This document shows, piece after piece, positions 1 to 17,567 of a stretch of DNA of 64,000 nucleotides. A program made the translations under genes and the position numbers. Position 1 is the first letter of the stretch. Each line of letters begins with the position of its first letter. Below the pieces are notes generated by a model. It was not told the origin of the DNA, did no database searches, and saw only the letters and a program-made list of their open reading frames with translations. The DNA comes from Frateuria hangzhouensis (lineage in GTDB: Bacteria > Pseudomonadota > Gammaproteobacteria > Xanthomonadales > Rhodanobacteraceae), in the NCBI RefSeq assembly GCF_026410505.1, contig NZ_JAPMIU010000011.1, forward strand, positions 62,001-126,000, given 5' to 3'.

Positions 1-3000
1 CGACGCGCCCGGCAGCGTCTCGACGGGCAGCAGGCGCACCTTCAGCGTCTCGTGGATGCGCTGCACGGCCGCGCTGTCATCCTGCTCGATCGACGTGCGC
101 AGGATGGCCTGGCGATCGACCACCTGCTGTAGCGCACGCTCGAACGCGGCCTCGTCCATCGGCCCGCGCAGGCGATGCGCCGAGGGCGTGTTGTAGACCA
201 CCCGCCCCGGGTGCAGTTGTTCCAGGTACCAGAGCCGCTGCTGCATCAACGACAGCGGGGCGCGTTGGCGGTCGGGCAGCCGCGGGATGCGCCTGCGATC
301 GGTGGCCGCGCCGCCCTGCCCTGCGGCGCGGATGGCCTCGGCCAACCGCGCCGCGGTCTGCGCTTCGAACACCGTGCGCATCGGCAGTGCCAGCTCCAGC
401 TCGCGATTGAGCCGGGCGACCAGTTGCGCCGCCAGCAGCGAATGCCCGCCGCGTTCGAAGAAGTTGTCTTCGACGCCCGGCTCGCTGCCGAGGACGGCCG
501 CCATGGCCGTCACCACGCGCTGCTCGAGCGCGTCGCGCGGGGCGACGCGGCCGGCTTCTGCGGGAGATCCCTCCTCCGGGACCGGCAGCCGTGCGCGGTC
601 GATCTTGCCGTTGGGCAGCCGCGGCAGCGCCGCCAGCACGACGAGGTGCTGCGGGATCATGTAATCGGGCAACGCCTCGCGCAGGTGTGCGCGGAGCGCC
701 GCTTCGTCGACGGTGGCACCGGGGGCCGCCACCACGTGCGCGAGCAGGCGCACGTCGCCGGGACGGAGTTCGCGCGTGGTGGCCAGGGCATCGGCGACGC
801 CGGGCAGGCTCAGCAGGCGCGCCTCGATCTCGCCCAGTTCGATGCGAAAACCGCGCAGCTTGACCTGGAAATCGAGCCGGCCCAGGTGCTCAAGCGTGCC
901 GTCCGGACGCCAGCGGCCGCGATCGCCGGTGCGGTACATGCGGGCATCCGGCGTTGACGCGAACGGATCGGCGAGGAAGCGTTCGGCGGTCAGTTCCGGC
1001 CGATGGCGATAGCCCAGTGCGACGCCGGTTCCGCCAATCCAGATCTCGCCCGGCACCCCCAACGGGCAAAGCTGGCGCTGCTCGTCGAGGATCCACACCA
1101 CCGTGTTGGCGACCGGCGTGCCGATGGCGATGCCCTCGCGCGGATGCTCGACGCGCCAGCAGGTCGACCACACCGTGGTTTCGGTCGGGCCGTACAGGTT
1201 CCACACCTCGCCGCAACGGGCAAGCAATTGCTCCGCCAGGTCCGGCGCCAGCGCCTCGCCGCCACACAGTGCGCGGAAGCCGGGCGCCGGCGCCCAGCCG
1301 GTTTCCAGCAGCATGCGCCAGGTGGCCGGCGTGGCCTGCATCACGGTGGCCTGGCTCGACTCGAGCAGGCGTTTGAGTGCTTCGCCGTCCATCGCCTGCT
1401 CGCGTCGGGCCATCACCACCTCGCCACCGACGGCGAGCGGCCCGAACAGTTCCAGCACCGCGATGTCGAAGGACAGCGTGGTGACGGCCAGCAGCCGGTC
1501 GTCCGCGTGCAGCCCCGGTCGCCCCGCCATGCTGGCGAGGAAGTTCGCCGCCGCCCGATGGGGAATCTCCACGCCCTTGGGCTGGCCGGTGGAACCGGAG
1601 GTGTAGATCACGTAGGCGACCGCCGTGGCATCCACATCGGCATCGTCAGGGCGGGACGCCGGTGCTGCCGCGAGCGCATCGCCGGCCTGGTCAAGCGCCA
1701 GCACCGGGCGACCGCGCAGATCGAAGCGCCCGGCATGCCGCGCCTGGGTGACCAGCACGGCCAGGCTGGCATCGCTGACCATGTAGTTGAGCCGCTCGGT
1801 GGGAAAGCCCGGATCGAGCGGCACGTAGCCTGCACCGGCCTTGAGCACGCCGAGCACGGCCGCGAGCATGCCCACGCCCCGGTCCAGCGCGATGCCGACC
1901 AGCGCGCCGGCACGCACGCCATGGCCGCGCAGCACGTGCGCGATGCGATTGGCAAGCGCGTCCAGTTCGGCGTAGGTCAATGCCTGTTTGCCGAAGTGCA
2001 CGGCGGTCCGCCCGGGATGGCGATCGCACTGCGCTTCGAACAGTTCGTGCATCCGCTGCGTCGCGACCGGCGTGGGCGCCGGCTGCAGCGCGAGCAGGGC
2101 GCGGCGCGCGGCCTCGTCGACCAGCGGCAATGCGCCCAGCAGCGCTTCCGGTTGCTCGGCCGCGGCACGCAGCAGCGTTTCGTAGGCGCCCAGCCAACGC
2201 GCCACCGTGGCCCGGTCGAACAGGTCGCGGTTGTACTGGCACTCCAGCCGCAGCCGGCCTTGCTCCTGCACCGCGTTGATGAACAGCTCGAAGTTCTCGA
2301 AGCTGCGCGGCGTGCTGGCGAAATCCATCGCCAGGCCCGGGAAGGCGGTGGCCTCGTGGTCGAGCGCCTGGTCGATGTTGAACAGCACGCTGACCAGCGG
2401 CAGCCGGCTGGGGTCACGCGGCACGCCGAGCTTCTTGAGCAGGGTGCCGAAGGTGTAGCGCTGGTGGTCCAGTGCGTCCAGCAGAGTGGCTTGGGTGGCG
2501 TCGAGCAGTTGCGCCAGGGGCGCGGCCGGGTCCGGCGCGCAGCGCAACGGCAGCAGGTTGACGCAGTGGCCGACCAGGCCGTCGTGGCCGTCGACCGATT
2601 GCGCGGCGGCCGGGATACCCACGACCACCTCGTGCTGCCCGGCGAGCCGGGCCAGCACCGCGGCAAAACCGCCAAGCAGGGTCGCGAACAGGCTGGCGCC
2701 GCGTTGCGCGCCCAGGCGCTTGATGGCGCTCACCAGCGTGGCGTCCAGGACGTGGTCGATCCGCGCCGAGGCGAAACTGCGCCGCAGGGGGCGGGCGCGG
2801 TCGGTCGGCAGATCCAGCGGTGCCGGCGGGTCCGCAAAGCGCGCCAGCCAGTACGACTCGTCGGCGGCGAGTGTCTTGCGGTCGGGCTGGCGTGCCGCCG
2901 CCAGGGCGTAGTCGGCAAACGATTCGGCCGGCGGCAGCGGCTCGCCCTGCGCGCCGGTGCGCGCGCCGTAAAGCGCCGCCAGTTCGCGCACCATCACCCA

Positions 3001-3504
3001 CCACGACCAGCCGTCGCAGATGATGTGGTGCGCGGTCAGCAGCAGGCGGTGGTCGTCCATGCCAAGCCGTAACAGTTCGGCGCGCAACAGCGGCCCCTGT
3101 TCCAGTTCGAAGGGCATTTCCACCACCGCGCGCAGCCGCTGGGCCAGGGCCGCCTCGCGCACGGCATCGTCCAGCGTGCCGAGGTCGGCCAGCGGCAGCG
3201 GCAACTCGAGCCGCTCCTGCACGCACAGGGTCTCGCCATCGGGCCCGAAGGTCGCGCGCAAGGCATCGTGGCGCCCGGCCAGGTCGCGCAGTGCGCCATG
3301 CAGCGCGTCGACGTCGAGCGGGCCGCGCAGGTGCAGGCTGACCGACTCGTTGTAGGCCAGCGAGGCATCGCTGCCCAGCTGCGCGGCGAGCCAGATTTCG
3401 CGCTGCGCTTCGGTGCTGGGCACCACGCGCGACAGCGCCACGGTCGCGAACGGATCGTAATCGACGGCCGTCAAGGCGGCCGGCGCGTGCAGGTCAGTGT
3501 TCAT
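1..3504 (-). CDS. Non-ribosomal peptide synthetase, C-A-PCP-C... (partial, runs off left edge)
   Basis: Extension module of a peptide assembly line; about 1168 residues are visible from the ATG at 3504. Domains in order: condensation (HHIICDG motif near residue 160, catalytic His and Asp intact), adenylation (YTSGSTGQPKG near 635, then YGPTETTVWS, YRTGD and LPNGKIDR), peptidyl carrier (GGHSL, phosphopantetheine Ser near 1021) and the opening of a second condensation domain (SLMQQRLWYLEQL near 1075). Pocket residues aligned by eye on GrsA read D-I-L-T-L-G-L-V-W, most like glycine-type codes; this is a weak inference. The ATG overlaps the stop of the upstream synthase (ATGA), so the two proteins are coupled and this module is the expected acceptor of the beta-amino acyl chain. 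No thioesterase is in view; the rest of the cluster lies left of the window. Confidence 0.95.
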   Translation of the reverse strand, partial: MNTDLHAPAALTAVDYDPFATVALSRVVPSTEAQREIWLAAQLGSDASLAYNESVSLHLRGPLDVDALHGALRDLAGRHDALRATFGPDGETLCVQERLELPLPLADLGTLDDAVREAALAQRLRAVVEMPFELEQGPLLRAELLRLGMDDHRLLLTAHHIICDGWSWWVMVRELAALYGARTGAQGEPLPPAESFADYALAAARQPDRKTLAADESYWLARFADPPAPLDLPTDRARPLRRSFASARIDHVLDATLVSAIKRLGAQRGASLFATLLGGFAAVLARLAGQHEVVVGIPAAAQSVDGHDGLVGHCVNLLPLRCAPDPAAPLAQLLDATQATLLDALDHQRYTFGTLLKKLGVPRDPSRLPLVSVLFNIDQALDHEATAFPGLAMDFASTPRSFENFELFINAVQEQGRLRLECQYNRDLFDRATVARWLGAYETLLRAAAEQPEALLGALPLVDEAARRALLALQPAPTPVATQRMHELFEAQCDRHPGRTAVHFGKQALTYAELDALANRIAHVLRGHGVRAGALVGIALDRGVGMLAAVLGVLKAGAGYVPLDPGFPTERLNYMVSDASLAVLVTQARHAGRFDLRGRPVLALDQAGDALAAAPASRPDDADVDATAVAYVIYTSGSTGQPKGVEIPHRAAANFLASMAGRPGLHADDRLLAVTTLSFDIAVLELFGPLAVGGEVVMARREQAMDGEALKRLLESSQATVMQATPATWRMLLETGWAPAPGFRALCGGEALAPDLAEQLLARCGEVWNLYGPTETTVWSTCWRVEHPREGIAIGTPVANTVVWILDEQRQLCPLGVPGEIWIGGTGVALGYRHRPELTAERFLADPFASTPDARMYRTGDRGRWRPDGTLEHLGRLDFQVKLRGFRIELGEIEARLLSLPGVADALATTRELRPGDVRLLAHVVAAPGATVDEAALRAHLREALPDYMIPQHLVVLAALPRLPNGKIDRARLPVPEEGSPAEAGRVAPRDALEQRVVTAMAAVLGSEPGVEDNFFERGGHSLLAAQLVARLNRELELALPMRTVFEAQTAARLAEAIRAAGQGGAATDRRRIPRLPDRQRAPLSLMQQRLWYLEQLHPGRVVYNTPSAHRLRGPMDEAAFERALQQVVDRQAILRTSIEQDDSAAVQRIHETLKVRLLPVETLPGAS

Positions 3505-6500
3505 GCGCCCACCTTCAGGTACTTGCCCGGTTGCTCGGGGTTGGGCACGAACCAGCACGGGTTGCCCTGGGGATCGCGGCCCAGCCGCGCGTCGGGGCGC
3601 GGCGGGCGACCGGCCTCCATCACCGTGCGCGAGGTCGCCGCGCGGCGCGGCAGGAAATCGCACTCCTGAAGCTCGACCACCGATTCCTTGTAGGCCTGGG
3701 CGATCGCCGCGAAATCCGCTTCGCTGTGCGCGCTGGTGAAGAAGCAGGGGAAGTTGTCCAGGATGTGGATGCCGCGGCTGCGCATCATCGCGAACAGCAG
3801 GTCCTGCAGCGGATGGTCCTCGAGGAACTGGGTCTTCCACACCGAGGCGAACTGCTTGACCAGGATCGGCGCGCCGCGCTCGTCGCAGAACGCGTTGAGT
3901 TCGGCCGCCAGCGCCGCGGTGCGCTGGTTGAGGCGCTCCTGCAACGCGGGTCCTTCGCGTTTCATGTGTTCCAGCGCCGCCTTGGCCGCGGCCAGGGCGA
4001 GGGGATGGCGCACGAAGGTGCCGGCGAAATAGGTCACGCCCACGGTCGGCTGCGAATCGTCGCCGAACTGCCACGCGCCGCCATCCAGGGCGTCCATGTA
4101 CGGGCGCTTGCCGGCGATCACGCCGATTGGATAACCGCCACCGACCACCTTGCCGTAGGTGGCGATGTCCGCCTGGATGCCGAACAGGCCCTGCACGCCG
4201 GCCGGATGGGCACGGAAGCCGGTGACGATCTCGTCGAAGATGCACAGCGTGCCGGAAGCGGCGGTGATCGCTCGGACCTCCTTGAGGAAGTCGACGGGCT
4301 GGAAGTCCGGGCGCCGGCTCTGCACCGGCTCGATCAGCACGGCGGCCAGCTCGTGCGCGCGCTCGCGGATGATCTGCAGCGATTCAGGCGTACCGTAGTC
4401 CAGCACCAGCACGTTCTCGGCGGTGTTGCGCAGGATTCCCGGCGCCGCCGGCACTGCCTTGAGCTTGCGCGTGCCGCGCACGATCACCTCGTCGATGATG
4501 CCGTGGTAGGAACCGGAGAACAGCACCACCGTCTCGCGCCCGGTGACGGTGCGTGCGATGCGCAGGGCACCCAGCACGGCTTCCGAGCCGGTATTGCACA
4601 GCGCCGCGCGACCGTGTCCGGTGAGCTCGCAGACCAGCCTGGCCACTTCGCCGGCCAGCGGATGTTGCGGGCCGATCTCGTAGCCCAGGTCGAGCTGCTC
4701 GCGCACCGCGTCCAGCACGAAGTCCGGTTGCCAACCGAACAGGCTCATGCCGAAGCCGTTGAGCGCATCGACGTACTCGTTGCCGTCCAGGTCCCACAGG
4801 TGCGCGCCCTTGGAGCGGCCGATCACGATCTGATAGACGATTTCCTTGAGCATTGGCCGGAAGCCGTTGACCACGCGCGGGTCGGCCATGTGCGGCCGGT
4901 GCGCCTCGGTGTACTCCTTCGATTTGCGCGTGCGCGCCACGTAGCGCTGCGCGAAGCGGTCGAGCCGGGCCTGCTGGTGCGCCGACAGTTCGCAGGCGCC
5001 GGTGTCGATGCGGGCGATCGCACCGAAGGCCTTCTTGACGTCGTAGCGGGTGTGGGCGAGCGCGGCCTCTTCATCCGTGGCCGCCACGCTTGCCGCCGCC
5101 GGGCTGGCCGGCGAGGAGGACGCCGGCGATGGCGCGGCGGGCGCGACGGCGGGGATGGCCGCCACCGGTGCCGGGGCGACGGCCTGCCCGGAGAGCAACG
5201 CCAGTTGCTGCGCCATCAGCTGCATCTGCTGCGCGATCACCTGCTGCATGTAGCCGCCCGTAGTGGAGGCCTGCGGCGCCATCGCCGTCAGCGAGGTCGC
5301 CGCGGGCACCGGCGCCGGAACGGGGACGACCGTGGCGAGGGCGACCGTGGCCGCTGCCGCCGGCGGCGCCTCGGCCGGCAGTTGCCCGTCGATCAGTTCG
5401 GCCAGCCGGTCCAGCGTCGAGTAGTCGGCCATCAACTGGCGGAAGGTGACCTTGACCGGGAATACCTTGGACAGGTGCAGCGCCATCTGCGTCAGCATCA
5501 GACTGTCCAGCCCCAGTTCCATGAAATGGGTGGTGCCGTCGGCATCGGCCAGGTCCATGCCTGCGACGTCCTCGAAAGCGCTCTTCAGTTGCTCGACGAT
5601 GGCCGGCCGGCGGTCGGCGCTGGGGGCTGCAACGGTCGACATCGGAAGCTCCTCGTTCTGGGATGGGGCGATCGGTTGAATGACGGATGGAACAGGCGCG
5701 GCCTCGGCCGCCGCCGGTGCATCGGCGGCGCGCGCCTCGACCCAGTAGCGCTGGCGTTCGAACGGATAGGTCGGCAACCGCAGGCGGCGACGCACGCTGC
5801 GCCGGTCGAAACGGGCCGGGTCGATGGCGATGCCGCGGCACCACAGCTGGCCCACGGCAAGGCGCACCGCCGCCGGTTCTGCCGCTGGCGTGTCCGAGAG
5901 CGAGGCCAGTGCGACGGTGTGGCTGCGTTGCGCGCCCGGATGCTGGCGTGCCAGCGTGCCCAGCGTTGCGCGCGGCCCCACTTCCAGCAGCACCCGCGCC
6001 GGCGCGTCGAGCACCCGGCCGAGCGCGGTGGAGAAGCGCACCGGACGGCGCATGTGCTCGCTCCAGTAATCCGCGGAAGTGGCTTGCGCCTCATCGAGCC
6101 AGTCGCCGGTGGCGGTCGACACCAGCGGCAGCCGCGGCGCCCGCAAGGCGATCTTCTCGACCTCGGCGTGGAACGGCGCCAGAGCCGGATCCATCATGGC
6201 CGAGTGGAACGCATGCGAGGTACGCAGCGGCCGGCAGGCGGTTCCCTCGGCCTCGAGCCGGGCCCGGAACCGCTCGATGGCCGCATGCGTGCCGGCCACG
6301 ACGCAGGCGCCCGGCGCGTTCTCCGCGGCCAGCGACAGGTCCGACGGCAGGCGCGGCCCCAGCGCGGCCAGCGGCAGGCGCACCGACAGCATGCCGCCCG
6401 AGGGCAACGCCTGCATCAGCGCGCCGCGCCGGGCCACCAGCCGCAGGGCGTCGTCGAGCTCGAACACCCCGGCCAGCGTGGCGGCCACGAACTCGCCCAC

Positions 6501-9500
6501 GCTGTGGCCAATCATCGCCGCGGGCACGATACCCGTGTCCATCCACAGTCGCGCCAGCGCGTACTCCAGCGCGAATGTGGCCGGCTGCGTCACCGCGGTC
6601 TGCCGCAGCGCCTCGGCATCGTCGGCGAAGACCTTTTCGCGCAGGTCGAAACCCAGCGTCGCGCGCAGCGTCTCGGCGCAGGCATCGAATGTCTCGCGGA
6701 ACACCGGCTCGCCGGCGTACAGCGCCCGTCCCATGCCCGGGTACTGTGCGCCCTGGCCGGGAAACAGGAAGACCACGTCGCCCGGGCGGGCGGGATGGCT
6801 GCGCGCGGTCGCCGCGGCGGTCTCCAGGCTGGCCAGCTTTGCAACGGCCTCCGGCACGTCGCTGGCGACCACCGCGATCCGGTGGGCGAAGGCCTTGCGT
6901 CCGGCCGCCAGCGTCCAGCCGACATCAGCCAGGTTGATCTGCGGCTGGACGGCCAGGTGTTCGGCCAGGCGGGTGGCGGCGGCGCCGAGCGCGCTCGACG
7001 TGCGCGCCGACAGCACCAGCAGTTGCGGTCCCTCGGCCGGTTCCGACGGCGCGCGCGGCGGCGGCTCCTCCATCACCACGTGCGCGTTGGTGCCACCGAC
7101 GCCGAACGAACTCACCCCGGCGCGCAGCGGCGCCTCGCCGGCGGTCCAGTCGCACAATCGGTCGTTGACCACGAACGGCGAGTTGGCCAGGTCGATCGAC
7201 GGGTTGGGCGCGCGGTAGTGCAGCGTCGCCGGCAAGCGCCGCTCGGCCAGCGCCAGCGCGGTCTTGATCACCCCCGCCGCACCGGCGGCCATCACCGTGT
7301 GGCCGAGGTTGCTCTTGACCGAACCGAGGCGGCAGAAGCCGACGTCGGTGGTGGTGTGGCGGAAGGCCCGGGTCAGCCCCTCCAGCTCGATCGGATCGCC
7401 GATCGGGGTGGCAGTGCCGTGCGCTTCCACGTAGGAAATGCTGCGCGCCTCGACGCCCGCGTCGGCGTGCGCCATCGCGATCACCGCGGCCTGGCCGGCG
7501 CTGCTGGGCGCCATGAAGCTGGCCTTGGTGCCGCCGTCGTTGTTGACCGCGCCGCCGCGGATCAGCGCGTACACCGGGTCGCCGTCGGCCAGCGCGTCGG
7601 ACAGGCGCTTGAGCAGCACCACCGCCGCGCCGTCGCTGAACACCGTGCCGCTGGCATCATCGCTGAAGCTACGCGTGTGCCCGTCGGCCGAGAGCATGGT
7701 GCCTTCCTGCGCCAGGTAGCCGCTGCGCGGCGGGCAGGTGATCGACGCGCCGCCGGCCAGCGCCATGTGGCAACGTCCCGCGCGCAGTGCGTCGAGCGCC
7801 TGGCAGATCGCCACCAGCGAGGTCGAGCAGGCGGTGTTGAGACTCACCGCCGGGCCGGTCAGGTTGAGTTTGTGCGCCACGCGGGTGGCGAGGAAATCCT
7901 TCTCGTTGGCGAGCATCACCTGGAACGCGCCGAGCTTGTCGATCAGGTCCGGCCGCGGCTGCAGGTGGTGCTGGAAATAGGTGGCGTTGTACATGCCGCC
8001 GAACACGCCCACCGGCATCGCGTGCGCATCCGGCACGTGCCCGGCGCGCTCCATGCACTCCCAGCACAGCTCGAGGAAGATGCGCTGCTGCGGATCCATC
8101 AGTTCGGCTTCGCGCGGCGGGATGCCGAAGAACGCCGCGTCGAACTGTTCGGCTCCGTCGATCACTCCGCGCGCCGGCACGTAGGCCGGATCGTCGCGCT
8201 GCAGCGCCGGGATCGAGCGGTCCAGTTCCTCCGGCGCGAAGAACGTGATCGAGTCCTGGCCGGCACAGAGGTTGCGCCAGAAGGTCTCGACGTCGCCGGC
8301 GCCGGGGAAGCGCCCGGCCATGGCGATGATCGCTACCGGTTCCTGCGCGGCGTTCGGGTCGCGCGGCCGGACGAGGCGCTCGGCCGCGAGCGCATGGCTG
8401 GGGCCGCCCTCGATGCCGGCGGCCACCGCGGCAGGCGTCGGGTCGCCGAAAAAGCCGGTGATGGTCGGCAGCGGCGAGAGTTCGGCATGGATGCGCGCGA
8501 CCAGCTGCATCGCCAGCAGCGAGTTGCCGCCCAGCTCGAAGAAGTTGTCAGCACGGCCGATCTGGTCGAGTCCCAGCAGGTTGGCGAACAGATCGCAGAC
8601 GGTCTGCTCGAGCGCGCCCACGGGCGCGGCGTAGGGATGGGCCAGCTCCGGCCGGCGGCGGTCCGGCGCCGGCAACGCGCGGCGGTCGAGCTTGCCGTTG
8701 GCGGTCACCGGCAGCGCGTCCAGCTGCAGGTAGCTCACCGGTACCATGAATTCGGGCAGGTGCCGCGCAAGCCGGGCACGCAGCGACTTCGGCGTCGGTG
8801 CCGGCTCGTCGGCCACGTAGTAGGCGACCAGGCGCTTCTGGCCCGGCCGATCCTCGCGCGCCAGCACCGCGCAGGCGCGGATGCCCTCGATACGCTGCAG
8901 GGCGGCAGCGATCTCGCCGAGCTCGATGCGGTAGCCGCGGATCTTCACCTGGTCGTCCAGCCGGCCGACGAAATCGATCCGGCCGTCGGGCAACCGGTGT
9001 ACCAGGTCGCCAGTGCGGTACAGCCGCGCGGCGGAATCGTCCCAAGGATGGACGACGAAACGCTCGGCCGTCAGTTGCGGCTGCCCCAGGTAGCCGCGGG
9101 CCAGGCCCAGGCCGCCGATATACAGTTCGCCGATCACGCCGGCCGGCACCGGCTCGCCGCGCGCGTTGAGCACCTCGAGCGTGGTATTGGCGATCGGCCG
9201 ACCGATCGGAATCGAGCGCTGCGTTGCGGGCAGGTCGCGCGGGATCGGGTAATGGGTGGCGAAGGTGGTGCATTCGGTCGGGCCGTAGACGCTGCTGAGC
9301 GCCAGTTCCGGCAGCGCCGCCTGCGCCCGGCGCACATGCGGCACCGACAGCGCTTCGCCGCCGGTCAGCAATTGCCGCAGGCCGCCAAGATGGCGCGCGT
9401 CGTCATCGACGATGGCGTTGAACAGGGCCGTTGTGAGAAAGGCGACGCGGACCTCGTGCCGGTCGATGGTGCGGGCCAGGCCCTTGCCGCTGGGAATGCG

Positions 9501-10790
9501 CTCGTCGTGCACCACGCAGGTACCGCCGTTGAGCAGCGCGCCCCAGATTTCGAAGGTCGCCGCGTCGAAGCCCAGCGGGGCGGTATGCAGCACGCGCGGG
9601 CTCGCCAACAGGTCGACGTAGTCCACCTCGCGCACGAGCCGGATGATCGCCTGGTGCGCGATCTCCACGCCCTTGGGCGTGCCGGTCGAGCCTGAGGTGT
9701 ACATGACGTAGGCCAGCGCATGGCCGTCCACCGACGAGGGTGCCGGCCCGGCGGCGTCGCCGGCGCCTTCCAGTTGCGCGAGCCCGACCACGGGCGCGGC
9801 GATGCCCGGCAGCGCGGGTGTACCGGCCGTCGCGACCACCAGCGCCGCGTGGGCGTCGTTGATCGCGAAGGCCAGCCGCTCCGGCGGGTGGGTGGGATCC
9901 AGCGGCAGGTAGGCGGCACCGGCCTTCAGGATGCCCAGCAGCGCCACGATGGCGTCGGCCGAGCGTTCCAGCAGCATGGCCACCGCCGCGCCAGCGCCCA
10001 CGCCGGCGGCCTGCAGTGCCGCGGCCACCCGGTTGGCGCGCGCATCGAGCGCCGCATAGGACAGCCGTCCATCCGCCCATTCGACCGCGACTTCCTGCGG
10101 GTGCTGGCGGGCGACCTGGTCGAACAGGCCATGCACGGTATCGTGCACGTTGCGGGCGATGTCCGTGGCGTTCCATTCGCGCACCCGGCGCCGGTGTTCG
10201 GCCATGTCCATCGCCTGCACCTGCGCCAGGCGGGAGGCGCAGGCCAGCCCGCGCAGCACCTGCGCCAATCCGTTCGCCAGCACCGCGGCCATCGCCTCGT
10301 CCACCACTGGCGACAGGTAGTCCAGCTGCAGCGCGTCGCCGCCGGGCGTGATCGCCCACAGCAAAGGCCGTTCCGGCGAAGACGCCTGTGCCGGATCGAC
10401 CGTCCATTGGCCGATCACGCTGCACGCGGGCGGCGACGGCAGGCCGGCGTCACTGTCCGGCGCTGGATGGGTCAGCCAATGGTCGAGCGGCCCATCCTGA
10501 GGCACCTCGAAGACCGCCATGCCATCGGGCTGGCCGGGCGCGGCGATCGCGATGCGCGGTTTGCCGGTCAGGCGCGCCTCGAGCACGGCCAGCGCGGCGG
10601 TCATGATCGATGCGGGCGGAATGCCCAGCCGCGCCGCGCGCTGCGCGATCGAGTCCTGCAGGGCGGGTTCCAGCGGGCAGGCGAAGCGCCGCCGAGCCGG
10701 CTCGCCTCTGGCCGGAGGCATGCGCACCAGCGCGTCCAGCAGCGAAGCATCCACCTGCGCAGCGCGGCAACTTTCCAGAGAGATGGTCAT
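3501..10790 (-). CDS. Hybrid NRPS-PKS-aminotransferase (partial C, A, PCP, KS, AT, ACP, AMT)
   Basis: A 2429-residue megasynthase that should start the assembly line. Residues 1-190 look like the C-terminal half of a condensation domain without HHxxxDG. Then come an A domain (YTSGSTGTPKG near 362; pocket Asp kept in GFDAATFE; code by eye D-A-F-A-L-G-V-T-F, hydrophobic), PCP (ELGGNSL, Ser near 754), ketosynthase (815-1240; TACSTS Cys near 987, then EAHGTATPIGDPIE and SNLGHT), acyltransferase (GHSVG Ser near 1430; HAFHS indicates malonyl-CoA), ACP (LGLDSL near 1763), a long Ala/Pro/Gln linker, and a class III PLP aminotransferase (1920-2400; Lys in TYGKVVGGG near 2213). I see no ketoreductase or dehydratase. 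AMT after a PKS module is known from mycosubtilin and microcystin synthases, where it converts a beta-keto into a beta-amino group. Start 10790 (GGGAAG 8 nt upstream) is preferred to the in-frame ATG at 10910. Confidence 0.95.
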   Translation of the reverse strand: MTISLESCRAAQVDASLLDALVRMPPARGEPARRRFACPLEPALQDSIAQRAARLGIPPASIMTAALAVLEARLTGKPRIAIAAPGQPDGMAVFEVPQDGPLDHWLTHPAPDSDAGLPSPPACSVIGQWTVDPAQASSPERPLLWAITPGGDALQLDYLSPVVDEAMAAVLANGLAQVLRGLACASRLAQVQAMDMAEHRRRVREWNATDIARNVHDTVHGLFDQVARQHPQEVAVEWADGRLSYAALDARANRVAAALQAAGVGAGAAVAMLLERSADAIVALLGILKAGAAYLPLDPTHPPERLAFAINDAHAALVVATAGTPALPGIAAPVVGLAQLEGAGDAAGPAPSSVDGHALAYVMYTSGSTGTPKGVEIAHQAIIRLVREVDYVDLLASPRVLHTAPLGFDAATFEIWGALLNGGTCVVHDERIPSGKGLARTIDRHEVRVAFLTTALFNAIVDDDARHLGGLRQLLTGGEALSVPHVRRAQAALPELALSSVYGPTECTTFATHYPIPRDLPATQRSIPIGRPIANTTLEVLNARGEPVPAGVIGELYIGGLGLARGYLGQPQLTAERFVVHPWDDSAARLYRTGDLVHRLPDGRIDFVGRLDDQVKIRGYRIELGEIAAALQRIEGIRACAVLAREDRPGQKRLVAYYVADEPAPTPKSLRARLARHLPEFMVPVSYLQLDALPVTANGKLDRRALPAPDRRRPELAHPYAAPVGALEQTVCDLFANLLGLDQIGRADNFFELGGNSLLAMQLVARIHAELSPLPTITGFFGDPTPAAVAAGIEGGPSHALAAERLVRPRDPNAAQEPVAIIAMAGRFPGAGDVETFWRNLCAGQDSITFFAPEELDRSIPALQRDDPAYVPARGVIDGAEQFDAAFFGIPPREAELMDPQQRIFLELCWECMERAGHVPDAHAMPVGVFGGMYNATYFQHHLQPRPDLIDKLGAFQVMLANEKDFLATRVAHKLNLTGPAVSLNTACSTSLVAICQALDALRAGRCHMALAGGASITCPPRSGYLAQEGTMLSADGHTRSFSDDASGTVFSDGAAVVLLKRLSDALADGDPVYALIRGGAVNNDGGTKASFMAPSSAGQAAVIAMAHADAGVEARSISYVEAHGTATPIGDPIELEGLTRAFRHTTTDVGFCRLGSVKSNLGHTVMAAGAAGVIKTALALAERRLPATLHYRAPNPSIDLANSPFVVNDRLCDWTAGEAPLRAGVSSFGVGGTNAHVVMEEPPPRAPSEPAEGPQLLVLSARTSSALGAAATRLAEHLAVQPQINLADVGWTLAAGRKAFAHRIAVVASDVPEAVAKLASLETAAATARSHPARPGDVVFLFPGQGAQYPGMGRALYAGEPVFRETFDACAETLRATLGFDLREKVFADDAEALRQTAVTQPATFALEYALARLWMDTGIVPAAMIGHSVGEFVAATLAGVFELDDALRLVARRGALMQALPSGGMLSVRLPLAALGPRLPSDLSLAAENAPGACVVAGTHAAIERFRARLEAEGTACRPLRTSHAFHSAMMDPALAPFHAEVEKIALRAPRLPLVSTATGDWLDEAQATSADYWSEHMRRPVRFSTALGRVLDAPARVLLEVGPRATLGTLARQHPGAQRSHTVALASLSDTPAAEPAAVRLAVGQLWCRGIAIDPARFDRRSVRRRLRLPTYPFERQRYWVEARAADAPAAAEAAPVPSVIQPIAPSQNEELPMSTVAAPSADRRPAIVEQLKSAFEDVAGMDLADADGTTHFMELGLDSLMLTQMALHLSKVFPVKVTFRQLMADYSTLDRLAELIDGQLPAEAPPAAAATVALATVVPVPAPVPAATSLTAMAPQASTTGGYMQQVIAQQMQLMAQQLALLSGQAVAPAPVAAIPAVAPAAPSPASSSPASPAAASVAATDEEAALAHTRYDVKKAFGAIARIDTGACELSAHQQARLDRFAQRYVARTRKSKEYTEAHRPHMADPRVVNGFRPMLKEIVYQIVIGRSKGAHLWDLDGNEYVDALNGFGMSLFGWQPDFVLDAVREQLDLGYEIGPQHPLAGEVARLVCELTGHGRAALCNTGSEAVLGALRIARTVTGRETVVLFSGSYHGIIDEVIVRGTRKLKAVPAAPGILRNTAENVLVLDYGTPESLQIIRERAHELAAVLIEPVQSRRPDFQPVDFLKEVRAITAASGTLCIFDEIVTGFRAHPAGVQGLFGIQADIATYGKVVGGGYPIGVIAGKRPYMDALDGGAWQFGDDSQPTVGVTYFAGTFVRHPLALAAAKAALEHMKREGPALQERLNQRTAALAAELNAFCDERGAPILVKQFASVWKTQFLEDHPLQDLLFAMMRSRGIHILDNFPCFFTSAHSEADFAAIAQAYKESVVELQECDFLPRRAATSRTVMEAGRPPRPDARLGRDPQGNPCWFVPNPEQPGKYLKVGA

Positions 10791-11012
10791 GTCCGTGGCT
10801 TCCCGATCAGTAGCTGAGGGAATATCAGTGGCGTCCTGCGCAGACAGGTGGCGGCGCGGCGCGCGAACCGGCGCCGGCCACGGCATGCCAGCACTCCGAA
10901 CTCTGCCCATCGGCGTCGATGCAGGCCTGCGTGCATGTCCATGTCCTTCCGCCCCTTGCTGCTTGTCCCCTTGATCCCGATGGCGCCTTGGCCCGCCGCC
11001 GCAACCGCCCGC

Positions 11013-11840
11013 CTAGCTCCCGGCCTGGAAGGCGAACAACCACAGAATGGCCCCCTGCGCCGGCGCGCCGCGCCATGTCACCCGCCAGGTACCGGCGCGA
11101 TCGACCTGCCTTACCGCCACGGCACACTGCACACCGCTGCTGGGCGGCAGGTCGAGGAACCGTTCGATCACCTTGAAGCCCTGGTCGGGCACGGCGGTCA
11201 TGCGGTAGACGTAGGCGTCGCCCCACCACACGGCTACCAGCGTCGCCGGCCCGGTGGTGGTGACCTCGCCGCTGGTCAGTCCGGCTCCCGGCCAATTCCG
11301 GCCCAGCTTCCTGCCGATCCGGGCGACGGTGCCGGGAGCGGGGTAACTGGTGGCGACGTCCTGCAAGACGCCGGCATTGCGGATTTCGACGAAGGGCGCG
11401 CTTATCTCGCCGGCTGGCACGCCGGGCTTGGCCAGGCTGACCCGATGGTCGCTGCCGCCCTTTGCCGGGAGCGCGACATAGGCGGCCGTACCGAACCTGC
11501 CGCTGTATCCGCGATAGGTGATGCGCGGCCCCTGCTGCACCCAGGTGTTGCCGTAGTTGTCCGACGGAAGCGCAGCGTTGCCGTTATAGCCGCCCACCAG
11601 CACGAGCAGCGCGCTGCCCGACGCCTGCGTCCGGACCGGCCCGGCGATGGCCGGGGCGCTCCCCTGACCATCCGGCTGCGCCAGCAGTGTGTGGGCCCCC
11701 AGCGACGGGCCCTGCGCGTGCTTGGGCGCCGCCGTGGCGGCGTCCACGCACGTGCTGCCGGTTGCGATGGCCATCGTCACGGCGACGGCAACCGTCGCGC
11801 CGAAGCTGCTTGCCCTGGGCCGCCGGCGATTCTCGTACAC
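11013..11840 (-). CDS. Secreted protein of unknown family within the NRPS region
   Basis: A 275-residue protein starting at GTG 11840, chosen because a strong ribosome site (GGGAAGGGAGGGG) lies 5 nt upstream. The N-terminus has several Arg followed by a hydrophobic stretch ending near CVDAATAA, a plausible export signal. The mature part is rich in Gly, Ala, Val and Trp and looks like an all-beta secreted fold, but I recognise no family or catalytic motif. It lies on the same strand as the sugar genes and the synthase and about 220 bp before the synthase start, so it may be co-transcribed. A role in export, self-protection or surface attachment of the product is only a guess from position. Confidence 0.75.
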   Translation of the reverse strand: MYENRRRPRASSFGATVAVAVTMAIATGSTCVDAATAAPKHAQGPSLGAHTLLAQPDGQGSAPAIAGPVRTQASGSALLVLVGGYNGNAALPSDNYGNTWVQQGPRITYRGYSGRFGTAAYVALPAKGGSDHRVSLAKPGVPAGEISAPFVEIRNAGVLQDVATSYPAPGTVARIGRKLGRNWPGAGLTSGEVTTTGPATLVAVWWGDAYVYRMTAVPDQGFKVIERFLDLPPSSGVQCAVAVRQVDRAGTWRVTWRGAPAQGAILWLFAFQAGS

Positions 11841-11940
11841 GGGTACCCCTCCCTTCCCCTGGGTTGCCGCCTCGCTAGACCGGCGGCAACGTTGGCAACG
11901 TCAATGTTCTCCAGCGCGCTTTCCACGACGGTCCGCGCCA

Positions 11941-12768
11941 TCAGCTGAGCTGGAAATGGAACCCGTAATAGCGGTCGATCGAGTGATCGCTTTCGAACGG
12001 AATGCGCATGTAGCGTTCGAACGATTCCCAGCGATCGATCGCGGTGTAACCGGCCGCTTCCATCTCGGCCAGGAACCCCGGCAAGGCCATGACCCGATAG
12101 GGGCAGCTGCTGAAGCCGATCTGCTGCAAGGTGAAGAAGCTGCGGCTCGGATGCAGGGGCGTCACGTTGATCAGCACGTGGCGCGGCGGTTCGCGCAACG
12201 CGCGCAACATCTCCGGCAACGGGAAGCCCAGGTACTGCAGCACGCCGCTGGCCAGCAGGATGTCGCAGCCGTCGGCATCACCGCGCGACAGGGTGAACTT
12301 CAGCCTGCCGCCCGCGTCGTGCTCGCTGGCCCACGCGCGCCCGGCAGAAACCACCTCGGGCAGGTCGTACACCGTCCATTGCAGGTCGTCGGGATAGTTC
12401 AGGTACGACTGGAAGCCGTAATAGCTGATGCCGATATGGCCGCCCAGGTCGAACACCGTCCGGTGGCCGGACATCAACAACTGGGACAGCCAGAAGACCA
12501 CCGGGTAATCGCCGACCAGGATGGTGTCCAGGCGGTCGCGGTAGAGTGCTGCGGCACGCGGAAGGTCGAAGCCGGTGGGCATGGTCTTCGGCGCCTGGGC
12601 AAGCGCCTGCTCGAAGCTGGCATATACGCCGAAATAGCTGTTGTTGGGCAGCGTCCCGCGGTCGAACAACTTGCGGTACATCGGCTTGGCCAGCAACCGC
12701 AGGCCGGGCAGTTCCGCGCCGTCGTGCGCCATGCGCCGGAGGTTCCCGGAAAGGCCTTTCATCGGCAT
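11941..12768 (-). CDS. Putative methyltransferase, TIGR04325/LIC12133-like
   Basis: About 275 residues. The glycine motif FDLGGHIGISYYGF, then WTVYDLPEVV and LLASGVLQYLGFPLPEML, fit the SAM-binding region of the TIGR04325 putative methyltransferases that recur in surface-polysaccharide clusters; the family call is from memory. It probably methylates a sugar or a nascent carbohydrate, and tailoring of the peptide is an alternative. Three starts are possible (ATG 12786, 12768, 12762). I prefer 12768 because GGGGGA lies 8 nt upstream. It follows the EpsB-like transferase by about 100 nt on the same strand. Confidence 0.75.
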   Translation of the reverse strand: MPMKGLSGNLRRMAHDGAELPGLRLLAKPMYRKLFDRGTLPNNSYFGVYASFEQALAQAPKTMPTGFDLPRAAALYRDRLDTILVGDYPVVFWLSQLLMSGHRTVFDLGGHIGISYYGFQSYLNYPDDLQWTVYDLPEVVSAGRAWASEHDAGGRLKFTLSRGDADGCDILLASGVLQYLGFPLPEMLRALREPPRHVLINVTPLHPSRSFFTLQQIGFSSCPYRVMALPGFLAEMEAAGYTAIDRWESFERYMRIPFESDHSIDRYYGFHFQLS

Positions 12769-12872: not shown

Positions 12873-14270
12873 CTAGCGCGCACCCTTCCCGAACAGCACC
12901 ACTTCCACGGTCTGGATCAGGATCAGCATGTCGAACAGCAGGTTGTGGTTCTTGACGTAGTACAGGTCGTACTTGAGCTTCTCGGCCGCGTCCTCCTCGG
13001 ACGCGCCGTACGGGTAGCGCAGTTGCGCCCAGCCGGCCAGGCCCGGCTTGAGGCAATGGCGCAGGTTGTAATAGGTGATCTTCTTGCCGAGGTCGGCGAC
13101 GAACTGCGGGCGCTCCGGACGCGGACCGATGAAGCTCATCTCGCCCTTGAACACGTTCCAGATCTGCGGCAGCTCGTCGAGCCGCACCTTGCGGATCAGC
13201 CGGCCCACGCGGGTGACACGGTCGTCGCCGGCCTTGGCCCAGCGCGCCACGCCGTCCATCTCGGCATCGGTGCGCATGCTGCGGAACTTCACCAGCCAGA
13301 ACGTGCGGCCGCGCGCGCCGACGCGCTCCTGCCGGTAGAACACCGGCTGGCCGGGGCCTGATTCGATGCGGATGGCCAGCATCACCAGCAGCATCAGCGG
13401 CCAGGTCAGCAGCAATACCCAGAACGAGGCGATGAGATCGAAGCTGCGCTTGGTGAACAGGCGCACGGGGGTGGCGTTGAAGCCGCCCGAGTACACCAAC
13501 CACGAGGGGTGGGTCAGTGACAGCTGCACGCGGCCGGCCTCGCGCTCGAAGAAAGTGGTCAGGTCGGTGACCAGGATGCCGAGCTGGCGGCACTCGAGCA
13601 GTTCCTCCATCAGCACGCTGCCGCGACGGTCCTCGACGCCGACCACGATCTCGTCCACTTCGTGCTGCTCGGCCCATTCGCACAGCGAAGGGCCCGGCGA
13701 CACCAGCAGGCCGGCCGGTAACGCGACCGTCTCGCCCGGGCAGGGCACGAAACCGACCAGCGAAAAGCCCCGCCGATCGGACCGGCGGCGCAGGCGGCCG
13801 TGGATCTGCGCCGCCCGTTCACCGGCTCCGAGCACGAGGATGCGGCGCTTGAAGGCCTCCACTTCCACCAGCCGCAGGAACCCGGCGCGGAAGGCAGTCA
13901 CGACGGCGAAGCCAAGCACCAGCGCAATGCCGAGCACGCCGCGGCCCACATACGCCTGCGGTACTACGTAGTAGGTCACGATCAGGGCGAAGCCGCCCAG
14001 CGCAAAGCCGATCGCCTGGCGCGCCAGCAGGCCGAACCAGTTGGCGCGCATGTAGGTCTGGTATTGGCCCAGGGCACCCAGGCCCAGCATGATCAGGACG
14101 GCGAAGACCACCGCCTGGGCGGGCAGGTACCGGATGAATTCGTCGACTTCCTCCGGTTCGCTGAAGCGCAGGTAGGTCGCCGCGTACATCGAGGCGACCA
14201 GCAGCAGCAGTTCGGCGATCCCCAGCAGAAGCAGCCAGCGTACGGTCTGTCGGTGCAGGAAACGAAGCAT
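12873..14270 (-). CDS. Undecaprenyl-phosphate sugar-1-phosphate transferase, EpsB_2/TIGR03013-like
   Basis: A 465-residue polyprenyl glycosylphosphotransferase expected in the inner membrane, where it would load the first sugar phosphate onto undecaprenyl phosphate. Four N-terminal membrane segments (about 10-135) lead into a Rossmann-like region (ILVLGAGERAAQIHGRL), a further membrane segment near residue 290, and a C-terminal bacterial sugar transferase domain with VFYRQERVGARGR, FRSMRTDAE, KVRLDELPQIWNVFKGEMS and GPRPERP. The architecture matches the TIGR03013 type often found in EPS loci. A candidate promoter lies at 14335-14363, so this gene may head a transcript that continues into the methyltransferase and possibly the synthases. 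Confidence 0.9.
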   Translation of the reverse strand: MLRFLHRQTVRWLLLLGIAELLLLVASMYAATYLRFSEPEEVDEFIRYLPAQAVVFAVLIMLGLGALGQYQTYMRANWFGLLARQAIGFALGGFALIVTYYVVPQAYVGRGVLGIALVLGFAVVTAFRAGFLRLVEVEAFKRRILVLGAGERAAQIHGRLRRRSDRRGFSLVGFVPCPGETVALPAGLLVSPGPSLCEWAEQHEVDEIVVGVEDRRGSVLMEELLECRQLGILVTDLTTFFEREAGRVQLSLTHPSWLVYSGGFNATPVRLFTKRSFDLIASFWVLLLTWPLMLLVMLAIRIESGPGQPVFYRQERVGARGRTFWLVKFRSMRTDAEMDGVARWAKAGDDRVTRVGRLIRKVRLDELPQIWNVFKGEMSFIGPRPERPQFVADLGKKITYYNLRHCLKPGLAGWAQLRYPYGASEEDAAEKLKYDLYYVKNHNLLFDMLILIQTVEVVLFGKGAR

Positions 14271-14411: not shown

Positions 14412-15212
14412 TCACCTGCCCGGCCCGCTCCCGCCAAACCCGTCTGCGCCCGCCGCCCGGCCCGCCCCGGAGGGCAGGTAGAGCCGGTAGCGCACCGTCT
14501 CCAACGAGGTCGCGAGCGAGCCAAGCCGGTCGCCGGGAAGCGCCAGGTCGAAGGCGCGGCAGGGCGGCTCGCCGCTGTTCGACGGCGGCACCACCGGCTC
14601 CCCGGGCACCACGCCGAATGCCGCGGGCGCCTGCGCCAGCCCGGTGCCGAATGCCTTGAGCACCGCCTCCTTGCGCGTCCACAGTTGCAGCAGCGCCCGC
14701 TCACGCTGCGCGGGCGGCAGTGCGTGCATGGCTTGGGCCTCCTCCGGCGTGCAAATGGCCGGCAGCAGCCCGTCCATGGACGCCCGTGGCGGCCACCGCT
14801 CCAGATCCACGCCCAGCAACCGCGTCGCGCCCACGGCAACGAGCACGTCCGGGCCGCTGTGGCTCAGGCTGGTGGCCAGCGGCGTGCCGGGAAGGTTCGG
14901 CTGGCCGGAAGGAAGAAAGCGCAACGGGACCCCGTCCGGATTTCGCTCGAGGCAGACCGCCAGCACCACCCGCCACAGCGCATGGGCGAGCACGTAGGCG
15001 TGGCGATCGCGGTCGAAGCGGAAGCGCGCCGCACGGCTGCGCTCCCCCGGATCGAGCAGCCCGGCGGCGGCTGTTTCGAAGGCGCTCCACGCGGTGGTGT
15101 CGAAAAACACCACGCTGACGTCACTGCCCTGGCGCGGTGCCAGGCCGGAGGCCAGCAAGGCCCGCCGGGCGTGGCCGGCAAAGTCATCCGGGCCGGCGGT
15201 GGCCTGGATCAT
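14412..15212 (-). CDS. 4'-phosphopantetheinyl transferase, Sfp type
   Basis: A 266-residue enzyme that transfers phosphopantetheine from CoA to the carrier-domain Ser, converting apo- to holo-PCP/ACP. Sfp-type motifs are visible: a central LSHSGPDVLVAVG segment, GVDLERW (Mg-binding) and WTRKEAVLKAFGTGL (W-x-x-K-E-A-x-x-K). Its length is typical of the Sfp/EntD class rather than the small AcpS class. Start ATG 15212 is 16 nt downstream of the epimerase stop, so it is probably part of that transcript. It very probably activates the three carrier domains of the adjacent synthases, which ties the sugar genes and the assembly line into one locus. Confidence 0.9.
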   Translation of the reverse strand: MIQATAGPDDFAGHARRALLASGLAPRQGSDVSVVFFDTTAWSAFETAAAGLLDPGERSRAARFRFDRDRHAYVLAHALWRVVLAVCLERNPDGVPLRFLPSGQPNLPGTPLATSLSHSGPDVLVAVGATRLLGVDLERWPPRASMDGLLPAICTPEEAQAMHALPPAQRERALLQLWTRKEAVLKAFGTGLAQAPAAFGVVPGEPVVPPSNSGEPPCRAFDLALPGDRLGSLATSLETVRYRLYLPSGAGRAAGADGFGGSGPGR

Positions 15213-15228
15213 CGCCGGCAGCGTGGCG

Positions 15229-16289
<1,061 letters not shown>

Positions 16290-16290
<1 letters not shown>

Positions 16291-17567
16291 CAGAGCCTCC
16301 CGTCGACTGCCTCGCGCGGCAGCACGTACTTGACGTCATAGACCACCGACGCCGGCTTGCCGAACGCACGCACGCCCTCGGCCCCCAGCGCCACGAACTG
16401 TCTGTGTCCCACCGCCACGATGACCGCGTCGTAGCCGCCCGGCGTGGGCTGCTCCACCGGTACCAGGCCGTACTCGTGGTGGGCGTCGTCGGCGTTCACC
16501 CAGGGATCGTGCACGTCCACCTGCGCGTTGTAGCTGCGCAGCGCCTGCACGATGTCGACCACGCGCGTGTTGCGCAGGTCCGGGCAGTTCTCCTTGAACG
16601 CCAGCCCCAGCAGCAGCACCCGCGCGTTCACCGGATTGATGCCCTTGCGCACCATCAGCCGGATCACTTCGCTGGCGATGTACGGCCCCATGCCGTCGTT
16701 GGTGCGCCGGCCGGCCAGGATCACGTCCGGGTGGTGGCCGACCTCCTGCGCCTTGTGGGTGAGGTAATAGGGATCGACGCTGATGCAATGGCCGCCGACC
16801 AGCCCGGGCCGGAACGGCAGGAAGTTCCACTTGGTGCCGGCCGCCTGCAGCACCTCCAGCGTGTCGATGCCCAGTTTGTTGAACAGGATCGCCAAATCGT
16901 TGACCAACGCGATATTGAGATCGCGCTGGGTGTTCTCGATCACCTTGGCCGCCTCGGCCACCTTGATGCAACTGGCCCGATGGGTGCCGGCGGTGATGAT
17001 CGAGCCGTACAGGCGGTTGACGAAATCGGCGGCCTCCGGGGTCGAGCCGGAGGTGACCTTGAGGATGCCGGTGACGCGGTGCTGCTTGTCGCCGGGGTTG
17101 ATCCGCTCCGGGCTGTAGCCGGCGAAGAAATCGCGGTTGAAGGTCAGCCCCGACCCGCTGGCGAGGATCGGCACGCAGACCTCTTCGGTGCAGCCCGGAT
17201 ATACGGTCGACTCGTACACCACCACGTCGCCCGGCTTGAGTACCTGGCTCAGGGTCTGGCTGGCACGGATCAGCGGCGTGAGGTCGGGCCGCTTGGCCGT
17301 GTCGATCGGCGTGGGCACGGTGACGATGTAGACGTTGCACTCGCGCAGGTCGTCCAGCCGCGTGCTGAAATCCAACCGCGTGGAAGCGGCCAGCTCGGCC
17401 GCGTCCACCTCGAGCGTGCTGTCGCGGCCGGCGCGCAGCTCGTCCACCCGCGCGGCGTTGATGTCGAACCCCAGGGTCGCGTAGCGCTTGCCGAATTCCA
17501 CCGCCAGCGGCAGCCCGACATAACCCAGTCCGACGACGGCGATCTTGCTGTCTTCCAGAGTCTGCAT
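16290..17567 (-). CDS. tviB: UDP-N-acetylhexosamine 6-dehydrogenase, TviB/WbpO family
   Basis: A 425-residue UDP-sugar dehydrogenase with an N-terminal NAD site ([19 protein letters not shown]), PTPI and ESTVYPG, a middle domain with [20 protein letters not shown], the catalytic Cys in [16 protein letters not shown], and a C-terminal UDP-binding domain ([16 protein letters not shown]). It oxidises the C6 hydroxyl of UDP-GlcNAc or UDP-GalNAc to the uronic acid with two NAD+. Start ATG 17567 is preceded by AGGGACG. It is the first gene of a dehydrogenase-epimerase-PPTase string. Confidence 0.92.

Follow-up and report, generated by a model that had tools for sequence, protein, structure and literature searches.

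The stretch analyzed here (the window) comprises 64,000 nucleotides of Frateuria hangzhouensis, positions 62001-126000 of contig C11 in a genome of 3.74 Mb and 61 contigs. It carries a polyketide synthase–nonribosomal peptide synthetase (PKS–NRPS) line that lies within a Wzx/Wzy-type exopolysaccharide locus and whose protein P1 ends in an aminotransferase (AMT) domain. We lean towards the reading that this line makes a diamino-acyl-glycyl peptide which modifies the exopolysaccharide, a reading in which domain order, motifs, locus content and recurrence are seen directly, whereas we infer substrates, products, release and attachment. A functional tie between line and polysaccharide is probable; that the peptide sits covalently on the polymer is a serious possibility which falls somewhat short of likely. 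PKS–NRPS lines are nearly always read as makers of free small molecules, whereas 46 of the 47 loci of the window's AMT clade within the order adjoin polysaccharide genes. Since, in addition, the AMT is common and a thioesterase is mostly absent, the line more likely serves the polysaccharide. A preliminary description of the same DNA had expected a rare antibiotic-like peptide, an expectation that these three observations do not sustain.

Domain organization and recurrence of P1

P1 is encoded by a single open reading frame on the reverse strand (window positions 3501-10910, 2469 amino acids (aa)). The span first proposed, 3501..10790, is in the same frame, yet the open reading frame begins at 10910; 10790 is an internal start (MTISLES) and the more plausible of the two. 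Pfam matches (AMP-binding aa 263-746, ketosynthase (KS) 857-1232, acyltransferase (AT) 1380-1653, Aminotran_3 2027-2341 and two PP-binding stretches) give the order of adenylation domain (A), peptidyl carrier (PCP), KS, AT, acyl carrier (ACP) and AMT. The parts of P1, from its N-terminus, are:

10191..10790 (-), partial condensation (C) domain remnant ahead of the starter A domain (by-eye reading)
8673..10124 (-), adenylation domain for the starter amino acid, code DAFFLGVTF (Pfam, motifs, code)
8376..8618 (-), peptidyl carrier domain, LGGNSLL (Pfam, motif)
7215..8342 (-), ketosynthase domain, TACSTS, EAHGTATPIG and NLGHTVM (Pfam, motifs)
5952..6773 (-), acyltransferase domain, HAFHS read as malonyl-type (Pfam, motif)
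5391..5594 (-), acyl carrier domain, LGLDSLM (Pfam, motif)
3591..4895 (-), pyridoxal-phosphate (PLP) aminotransferase domain, MycA-type, with the PLP lysine in TYGKVVGGG at 4134-4160

A motif search found all catalytic motifs intact, including SGSTGTPKG and FDAATFEIWG (which holds Asp235) in the A domain, GHSVGE in the AT and an NTGSEAV stretch in the AMT. The architecture claimed in the preliminary description, with intact active sites, a retained Asp235, the malonyl-type HAFHS signature and the PLP lysine, is thus borne out. The same is true of the claimed lack of reductive domains: neither ketoreductase (KR), dehydratase (DH) nor enoylreductase (ER) is among the eleven Pfam families matched in P1, and the gap of 120 aa between AT and ACP is too short for a KR. 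Across 50 homologous proteins this gap has a median of 114 aa and is at most 155 aa in 49, so that no ketoreductase fits in these (the exception is G189). At the N-terminus aa 41-240 resemble by eye a partial C domain; in the window protein Pfam scores nothing there and the HHxxxDG motif is absent from the first 260 aa. A hidden Markov model of domains scores C at this stretch in the homologues of G126, G260 and G373 and of the plasmid loci L011 and L013.

An AMT profile built from an eight-row alignment (threshold E <= 1e-90) matched 91 of the 398 genomes of the order, distributed over 26 of its 98 genera. Stretches of up to 40 kb around the AMT (shorter at contig ends) from 50 matching genomes form, together with the window contig, the 51 loci considered below. 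The whole order A-PCP-KS-AT-ACP-AMT occurs in one protein in 40 of them, and therefore the arrangement of P1 is no effect of chance or assembly. In G035 and G271 the A-PCP part is a separate protein immediately upstream; the remaining 9 of the 51 are incomplete or show a different order.

The surrounding polysaccharide locus

In the window contig polysaccharide genes are found on both sides of the line. Upstream of it in the window are:

11013..11840 (-), conserved protein of unassigned family, its signal peptide apparent by eye; family present in 22 of the 51 loci, this one included
12873..14270 (-), exopolysaccharide polyprenyl-phosphate sugar transferase (TIGR03013, 550 bits, cut-off 393)
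14412..15215 (-), 4'-phosphopantetheinyl transferase of the ACPS superfamily; start placed downstream of an overlap
15229..16290 (-), TviC-like UDP-N-acetylhexosamine(uronate) 4-epimerase (443 bits, under the TviC cut-off of 760)
16290..17567 (-), TviB-like UDP-N-acetylglucosamine 6-dehydrogenase (624 bits, cut-off 592); start taken from the beginning of the model match

The contig also encodes an XrtA-type chain-length protein (TIGR03007, above cut-off), a flippase, a Wzy_C polymerase/ligase, a polysaccharide deacetylase, two glycosyltransferases and a Poly_export protein. An exosortase (PF09721) has no match in the genome, which makes this an XrtA-type exopolysaccharide locus without protein sorting. 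The conserved protein at 11013-11840 matched neither Pfam nor NCBIfam, and its AlphaFold2 model, built on two sequences, reached a mean pLDDT of 34.8 and was excluded from fold searching.

For comparison among loci, seven markers (sugar transferase, two nucleotide-sugar enzymes, polymerase, flippase, export and chain-length proteins) were taken from the window contig and the plasmid loci L010, L014 and L015 and compared by six-frame blastp. Of the 51 loci, 44 have the sugar transferase and 46 at least one marker. No marker was detected in G012, G189, G291 and G272, and G342 has only a deacetylase. In G095 the sugar transferase lies about 21 kb upstream of the AMT, beyond the fetched stretch; in G342 the distance is about 198 kb. 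Among ten control NRPS clusters from eight genomes of the order, with short flanks, none has a polysaccharide marker. As background, 59 genomes of the family contain 42 Bac_transf sugar-transferase genes; set against 44 positive loci of 51, a chance neighborhood was rejected.

Besides these markers, a protein family absent from the window occurs in 16 of the 51 loci, and in G039 (11234-12148) it immediately precedes P1. A scan of one member gave a Cupin_8/JmjC_2-like protein, possibly a hydroxylase. In the plasmid loci L011 and L013 a 2OG-Fe(II) oxygenase is annotated upstream of the line.

Phylogeny of the aminotransferase domain

A quick phylogeny of 90 AMT domains, with MycA and McyE themselves outside it, divides into a group of 72 rows including the window and one of 15 rows. 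Both splits have an SH-aLRT of 89, the sole support measure, and the topology is indicative as several rows are on long branches. The smaller branch contains Paenibacillus (L036, L041) and Viridibacillus (L038) lines of iturin-like order, cyanobacterial and Streptomyces rows, and others. Its Leptolyngbya, Okeania, Brasilonema and Hassallia rows have no polysaccharide marker in their flanks, which are partly short. L026, L033 and L045 fall outside both groups with weak support. The contrast with lines started by fatty or aryl acids, drawn in the preliminary description, is therefore reflected in the tree by the separate position of the iturin-like lines.

Three of the marker-negative loci of the order (G012, G189, G291) belong to the 15-row branch, and G272 has no AMT row. 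Within the order at least one marker accompanies 46 of 47 loci of the window's clade, which span 23 genus groups, vs none of three loci of the other branch (Fisher p 2e-4). For the named loci, whose flanks extend to 10 kb at the most, and with glycosyltransferase and deacetylase also counted, the proportion is 11/18 in the clade vs 0/12 outside (p 6e-4); both p values are descriptive because the rows share ancestry. By the seven markers alone 9 of these 18 are positive, L022 and L024 showing only a glycosyltransferase. Flanks are shortened in several of the 12 loci of the other branch and in L028 and L031 of the 18. This count leaves aside L026, L033, L045 and L047 (the last has no tree row), none of which has a marker. 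Named relatives in the clade come from other Pseudomonadota and from Bacteroidota, where the evidence for the same neighborhood is thinner.

Plasmid records with a cover of 80% or more number 28, and seven of these loci were examined. L010, L014 and L015 contain a full polysaccharide locus, L011 has one glycosyltransferase nearby, none is annotated in L012 and L013, and L016 carries no annotation. Copper-resistance genes are located by the line in L011 (39611-42437) and L013 (35124-37952), which are related Variovorax plasmids, and in the Spirosoma plasmid L012 (31551-41034). A general role in copper handling was found unsupported: in tblastn searches of 92 sequences (the 51 loci of the order and L010-L050) seven copper proteins of L011 and L012 matched L011, L012 and L013 only.

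The predicted β,γ-diamino acyl unit

The P1 AMT is nearer to the MycA AMT than to stand-alone glutamate-1-semialdehyde aminomutase (GSAM), both by sequence and by fold. The comparison with MycA that had been proposed at the outset gives the MycA AMT structure 6kfm as the closest PDB sequence (406 bits, vs 171 bits for the best GSAM), and in Foldseek the same structure ranks first (TM 0.88, 45% identity) when the query is a model derived from 19 sequences (mean pLDDT 78.5). The PLP lysine of the TYGK stretch does not vary in alignments of 8 and of 19 AMTs; in the larger one its neighboring residues are invariant as well. For MycA, PMC3870968 describes that the amine is drawn from glutamine and placed onto a β-ketothioester on the ACP. 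The AMT sequence supports a corresponding amination step as a prediction for P1.

Codes of A domains were read at motif positions known from GrsA. That of P1, DAFFLGVTF, we take to be branched aliphatic and Ile-like. A readable code for the A domain ahead of the KS was obtained in 39 of the 51 loci, and every one starts with Asp; the other twelve (G012, G189, G261, G272, G279, G281, G291, G316, G318, G334, G371, G374) have no code at the starter position and were not counted. The classes are DA[LF]W.GGTF (23 loci, presumably Val-like), DVQF.AHV (10, presumably Pro-like), DALFFGPTF (2), DFWNIGMVH (2, presumably Thr-like), DSRFMGEVF (1) and the window code. Among plasmid homologues the starter code is Val-like in L010, Thr-like in L012 and DISDITGVW in L011 and L013. 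The starter hence varies among loci yet stays an amino acid where it is readable, and each of these would be expected to yield a β,γ-diamino unit.

Chemically, the best prediction for P1 is a β,γ-diamino acyl unit, and we consider this diamino chemistry likely. The vicinal diamine forecast in the preliminary description is upheld at the level of sequence, namely by an amino-acid A domain, an unreduced malonyl extension and a MycA-type AMT. None of the contrary results named there came up, P1 having no KR and keeping Asp235 and the PLP lysine. Two other outcomes for this unit have been weighed. As γ-amino thioesters readily give five-membered lactams, the γ-amine could attack the thioester, giving a tetramic acid if this precedes amination and a 4-amino-5-alkyl-pyrrolidinone if it follows, so that the unit would be cyclic and not an open vicinal diamine. 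This appears improbable, because the following protein opens with a C domain whose HHIICDG motif is intact and which is placed to accept an acyl chain, and because almost every locus has a C-A-PCP-containing protein or extension after the AMT. Similarly small is the chance that the AMT is idle or that the substrate of the A domain differs from the one suggested by its code, leaving a γ-amino-β-keto or other acid. The codes and their readings are predictions, and we know of no biochemistry for the window's AMT clade; on the other side stand the invariant lysine and its neighbors in the 19 AMTs, the match of the model to the MycA AMT and the Asp retained in all 39 readable starter codes.

Downstream proteins and line termini

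1..3504 (-), start of P2, C-A-PCP-C-A-PCP, 2151 aa; leaves the window at its left end (contig C11:59049-65504)

P2 and P1 overlap by four bases, and the HHIICDG motif just mentioned is the HHxxxDG motif of the first C domain of P2. A third NRPS protein, P3 (A-PCP-C-A-PCP, 1666 aa), is encoded at C11:53752-58752, wholly beyond the left end of the window. The codes are DILQLGLVW twice in P2 and DPRSTGEVF and DILQFGLIW in P3; those beginning with DILQ we assume to be glycine-like. P3 is a possible second starter. Its first A domain is similar to the starter A-PCP that G271 has as a protein of its own, and to the third protein of G316 (DSRFMGEVF).

Neither P2 nor P3 contains a thioesterase, and both finish in a short cationic tail. 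The tail of P2 (about C11:59049-59141) is amphipathic-looking. The same was asked of 51 line-ending proteins, defined by possession of a C domain and by a PCP as last scored domain, some loci contributing two. A short tail with a net charge of at least +3 over the last 16 residues and no thioesterase was present in 38 of them, often SLGxRLRRLFGRR-like. Long extra tails were present in five: those of G342, G260 and G286 are thioesterase-like by eye, that of G268 is related to TIGR03101 (72 bits, cut-off 203) and that of G373 is similar to it by eye. The remaining 8 of the 51 fit neither rule, one of them being the G291 protein from the 15-row AMT branch. G342, the sole clade member in the order without any of the seven markers nearby, bears a thioesterase-like tail. 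Such a pattern is expected where the usual product is not freed as an acid.

Free peptide or polymer-bound product

The line could alternatively yield a free secreted diamino-peptide (a metal chelator, signal or antibiotic) that merely shares the locus and perhaps its export or regulation. This we regard as unlikely. PKS–NRPS lines do usually make free metabolites; the thioesterase-like tails of G342, G260 and G286 and the hydrolase-like ones of G268 and G373 would suit a released product; and the homologues on L011, L013 and L012 adjoin copper-resistance genes outside a full polysaccharide locus. Against it are the markers in 46 of the 47 clade loci of the order, the polysaccharide genes on both flanks of the window line, the missing thioesterase of most lines and the fact that the copper proteins tested match none of the other loci.

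Several observations nevertheless weigh against a product devoted to the polysaccharide. Twelve of the 46 positive loci (G054, G126, G249, G260, G261, G268, G282, G286, G290, G339, G352 and G374) have the sugar transferase as their lone marker, and the epimerase matches include weak ones (27-32% identity). The control clusters offer only about 106 kb of non-NRPS flank in total, some of them nearly none. Outside the set from the order, 7 of the 18 named clade loci are without a marker within 10 kb, and a full polysaccharide locus is present in only three of the seven plasmid loci. G260 and G286, in which the sugar transferase is present, hold an extra NRPS with the thioesterase-like tail, and hydrolase-like tails are fused to the proteins of G268 and G373, so that a released peptide is possible. 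The full peptide length is uncertain because P3 is missing from the 40 kb retrieved for G022, the nearest sister genome. Finally, no dedicated transferase was found, and the genome has neither an MBOAT transferase (PF03062) match nor an exosortase.

With neither family matched in the genome, attachment by exosortase or MBOAT routes was rejected here. An α/β hydrolase encoded at C11:41069-42364 is related to TIGR03100 (77 bits, cut-off 168) and has Cys in its nucleophile motif (GLCSGA). The GxCSx motif is present in all 12 TIGR03100-like family members from 11 genomes near homologous lines and the window contig. This hydrolase is a candidate acyltransferase, kept as no more than a lead since 11 of the 51 stretches of up to 40 kb include it. 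Polysaccharide deacetylases could bare the acceptor amine.

Proposed route and its meaning

In the favored reading, that of a peptide modifying the exopolysaccharide, the A domain of P1 would load a branched aliphatic α-amino acid onto the PCP, and the KS would extend the aminoacyl chain with malonyl supplied by the AT. The resulting γ-amino-β-keto thioester would be left unreduced, and the MycA-type AMT would swap its keto group for an amine, the donor probably being glutamine as for MycA, to give a β,γ-diamino acyl-ACP. P2 would then append two small residues, presumably glycine by their code, and the diamino-acyl-glycyl chain would most probably be passed to a sugar of the repeat unit (an amino sugar or N-acetylhexosaminuronic acid).

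More broadly and more tentatively, the loci may represent a widespread undescribed class in which a zwitterionic aminohexuronic-acid exopolysaccharide bears a vicinal diamine in a nonribosomal side chain made by a dedicated PKS–NRPS clade that traded its thioesterase for a cationic tail. The side chain would consist of a Val-, Pro-, Thr- or Ile-derived β,γ-diamino acid and glycine-like residues, and the tail would be membrane- or machine-seeking; taken as a whole this zwitterionic picture is conceivable, and we would stop short of calling it likely. If the product is indeed polymer-bound, the line would represent a new means of placing positive charge and metal-binding vicinal diamines on the bacterial surface as well as an enzymatic route to β,γ-diamino acids, and searches for free compounds would miss its product.

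Comparison with known systems

The single features described here are of already known kinds. Their combination (an amino-acid-fed AMT module, a thioesterase-poor line, a polysaccharide locus and wide conservation) was not found among the open-access matches listed. The titles and abstract beginnings of these matches mention neither an AMT-containing PKS–NRPS in a polysaccharide locus nor a vicinal diamine from an AMT module, which is weak evidence of absence.

Among peptide synthetases the closest system is mycosubtilin MycA of the iturin family, which likewise has an unreduced PKS module followed by a class-III, GSAM-like AMT acting on a β-ketoacyl-ACP. The MycA line begins with a fatty acyl ligase, whereas P1 uses an NRPS A domain predicted to load an α-amino acid. 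In microcystin and puwainaphycin lines the AMT is also located at the PKS–NRPS junction, starters are aryl or fatty acids and the products are free (lipo)peptides. P1 differs from iturin- and microcystin-type lines in its predicted starter (Asp235, DAFFLGVTF), and the AMTs of iturin-like rows group apart from that of the window (15 vs 72 rows, MycA and McyE being outside the tree).

Among polysaccharide systems, XrtA/PEP-CTERM loci share the sugar transferase (TIGR03013) and chain-length (TIGR03007) families above cut-off and related hydrolase and ligase families below it. Those exopolysaccharide loci are said to carry just an acyl ligase and a carrier protein, whereas this genome lacks an exosortase and has a full PKS–NRPS. 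With the tviB/tviC genes of the Vi antigen the locus has in common the TviB-like dehydrogenase above cut-off and an epimerase of the TviC family; it differs by the sub-cut-off TviC score and by the Wzx/Wzy-type organization of the remaining locus. In the Dlt system an adenylation enzyme and a carrier protein decorate an envelope polymer by D-alanylation of teichoic acid. The line described here is not a member of that system: a multi-module PKS–NRPS stands in the place of DltA and DltC, in a genome without an MBOAT protein (DltB).

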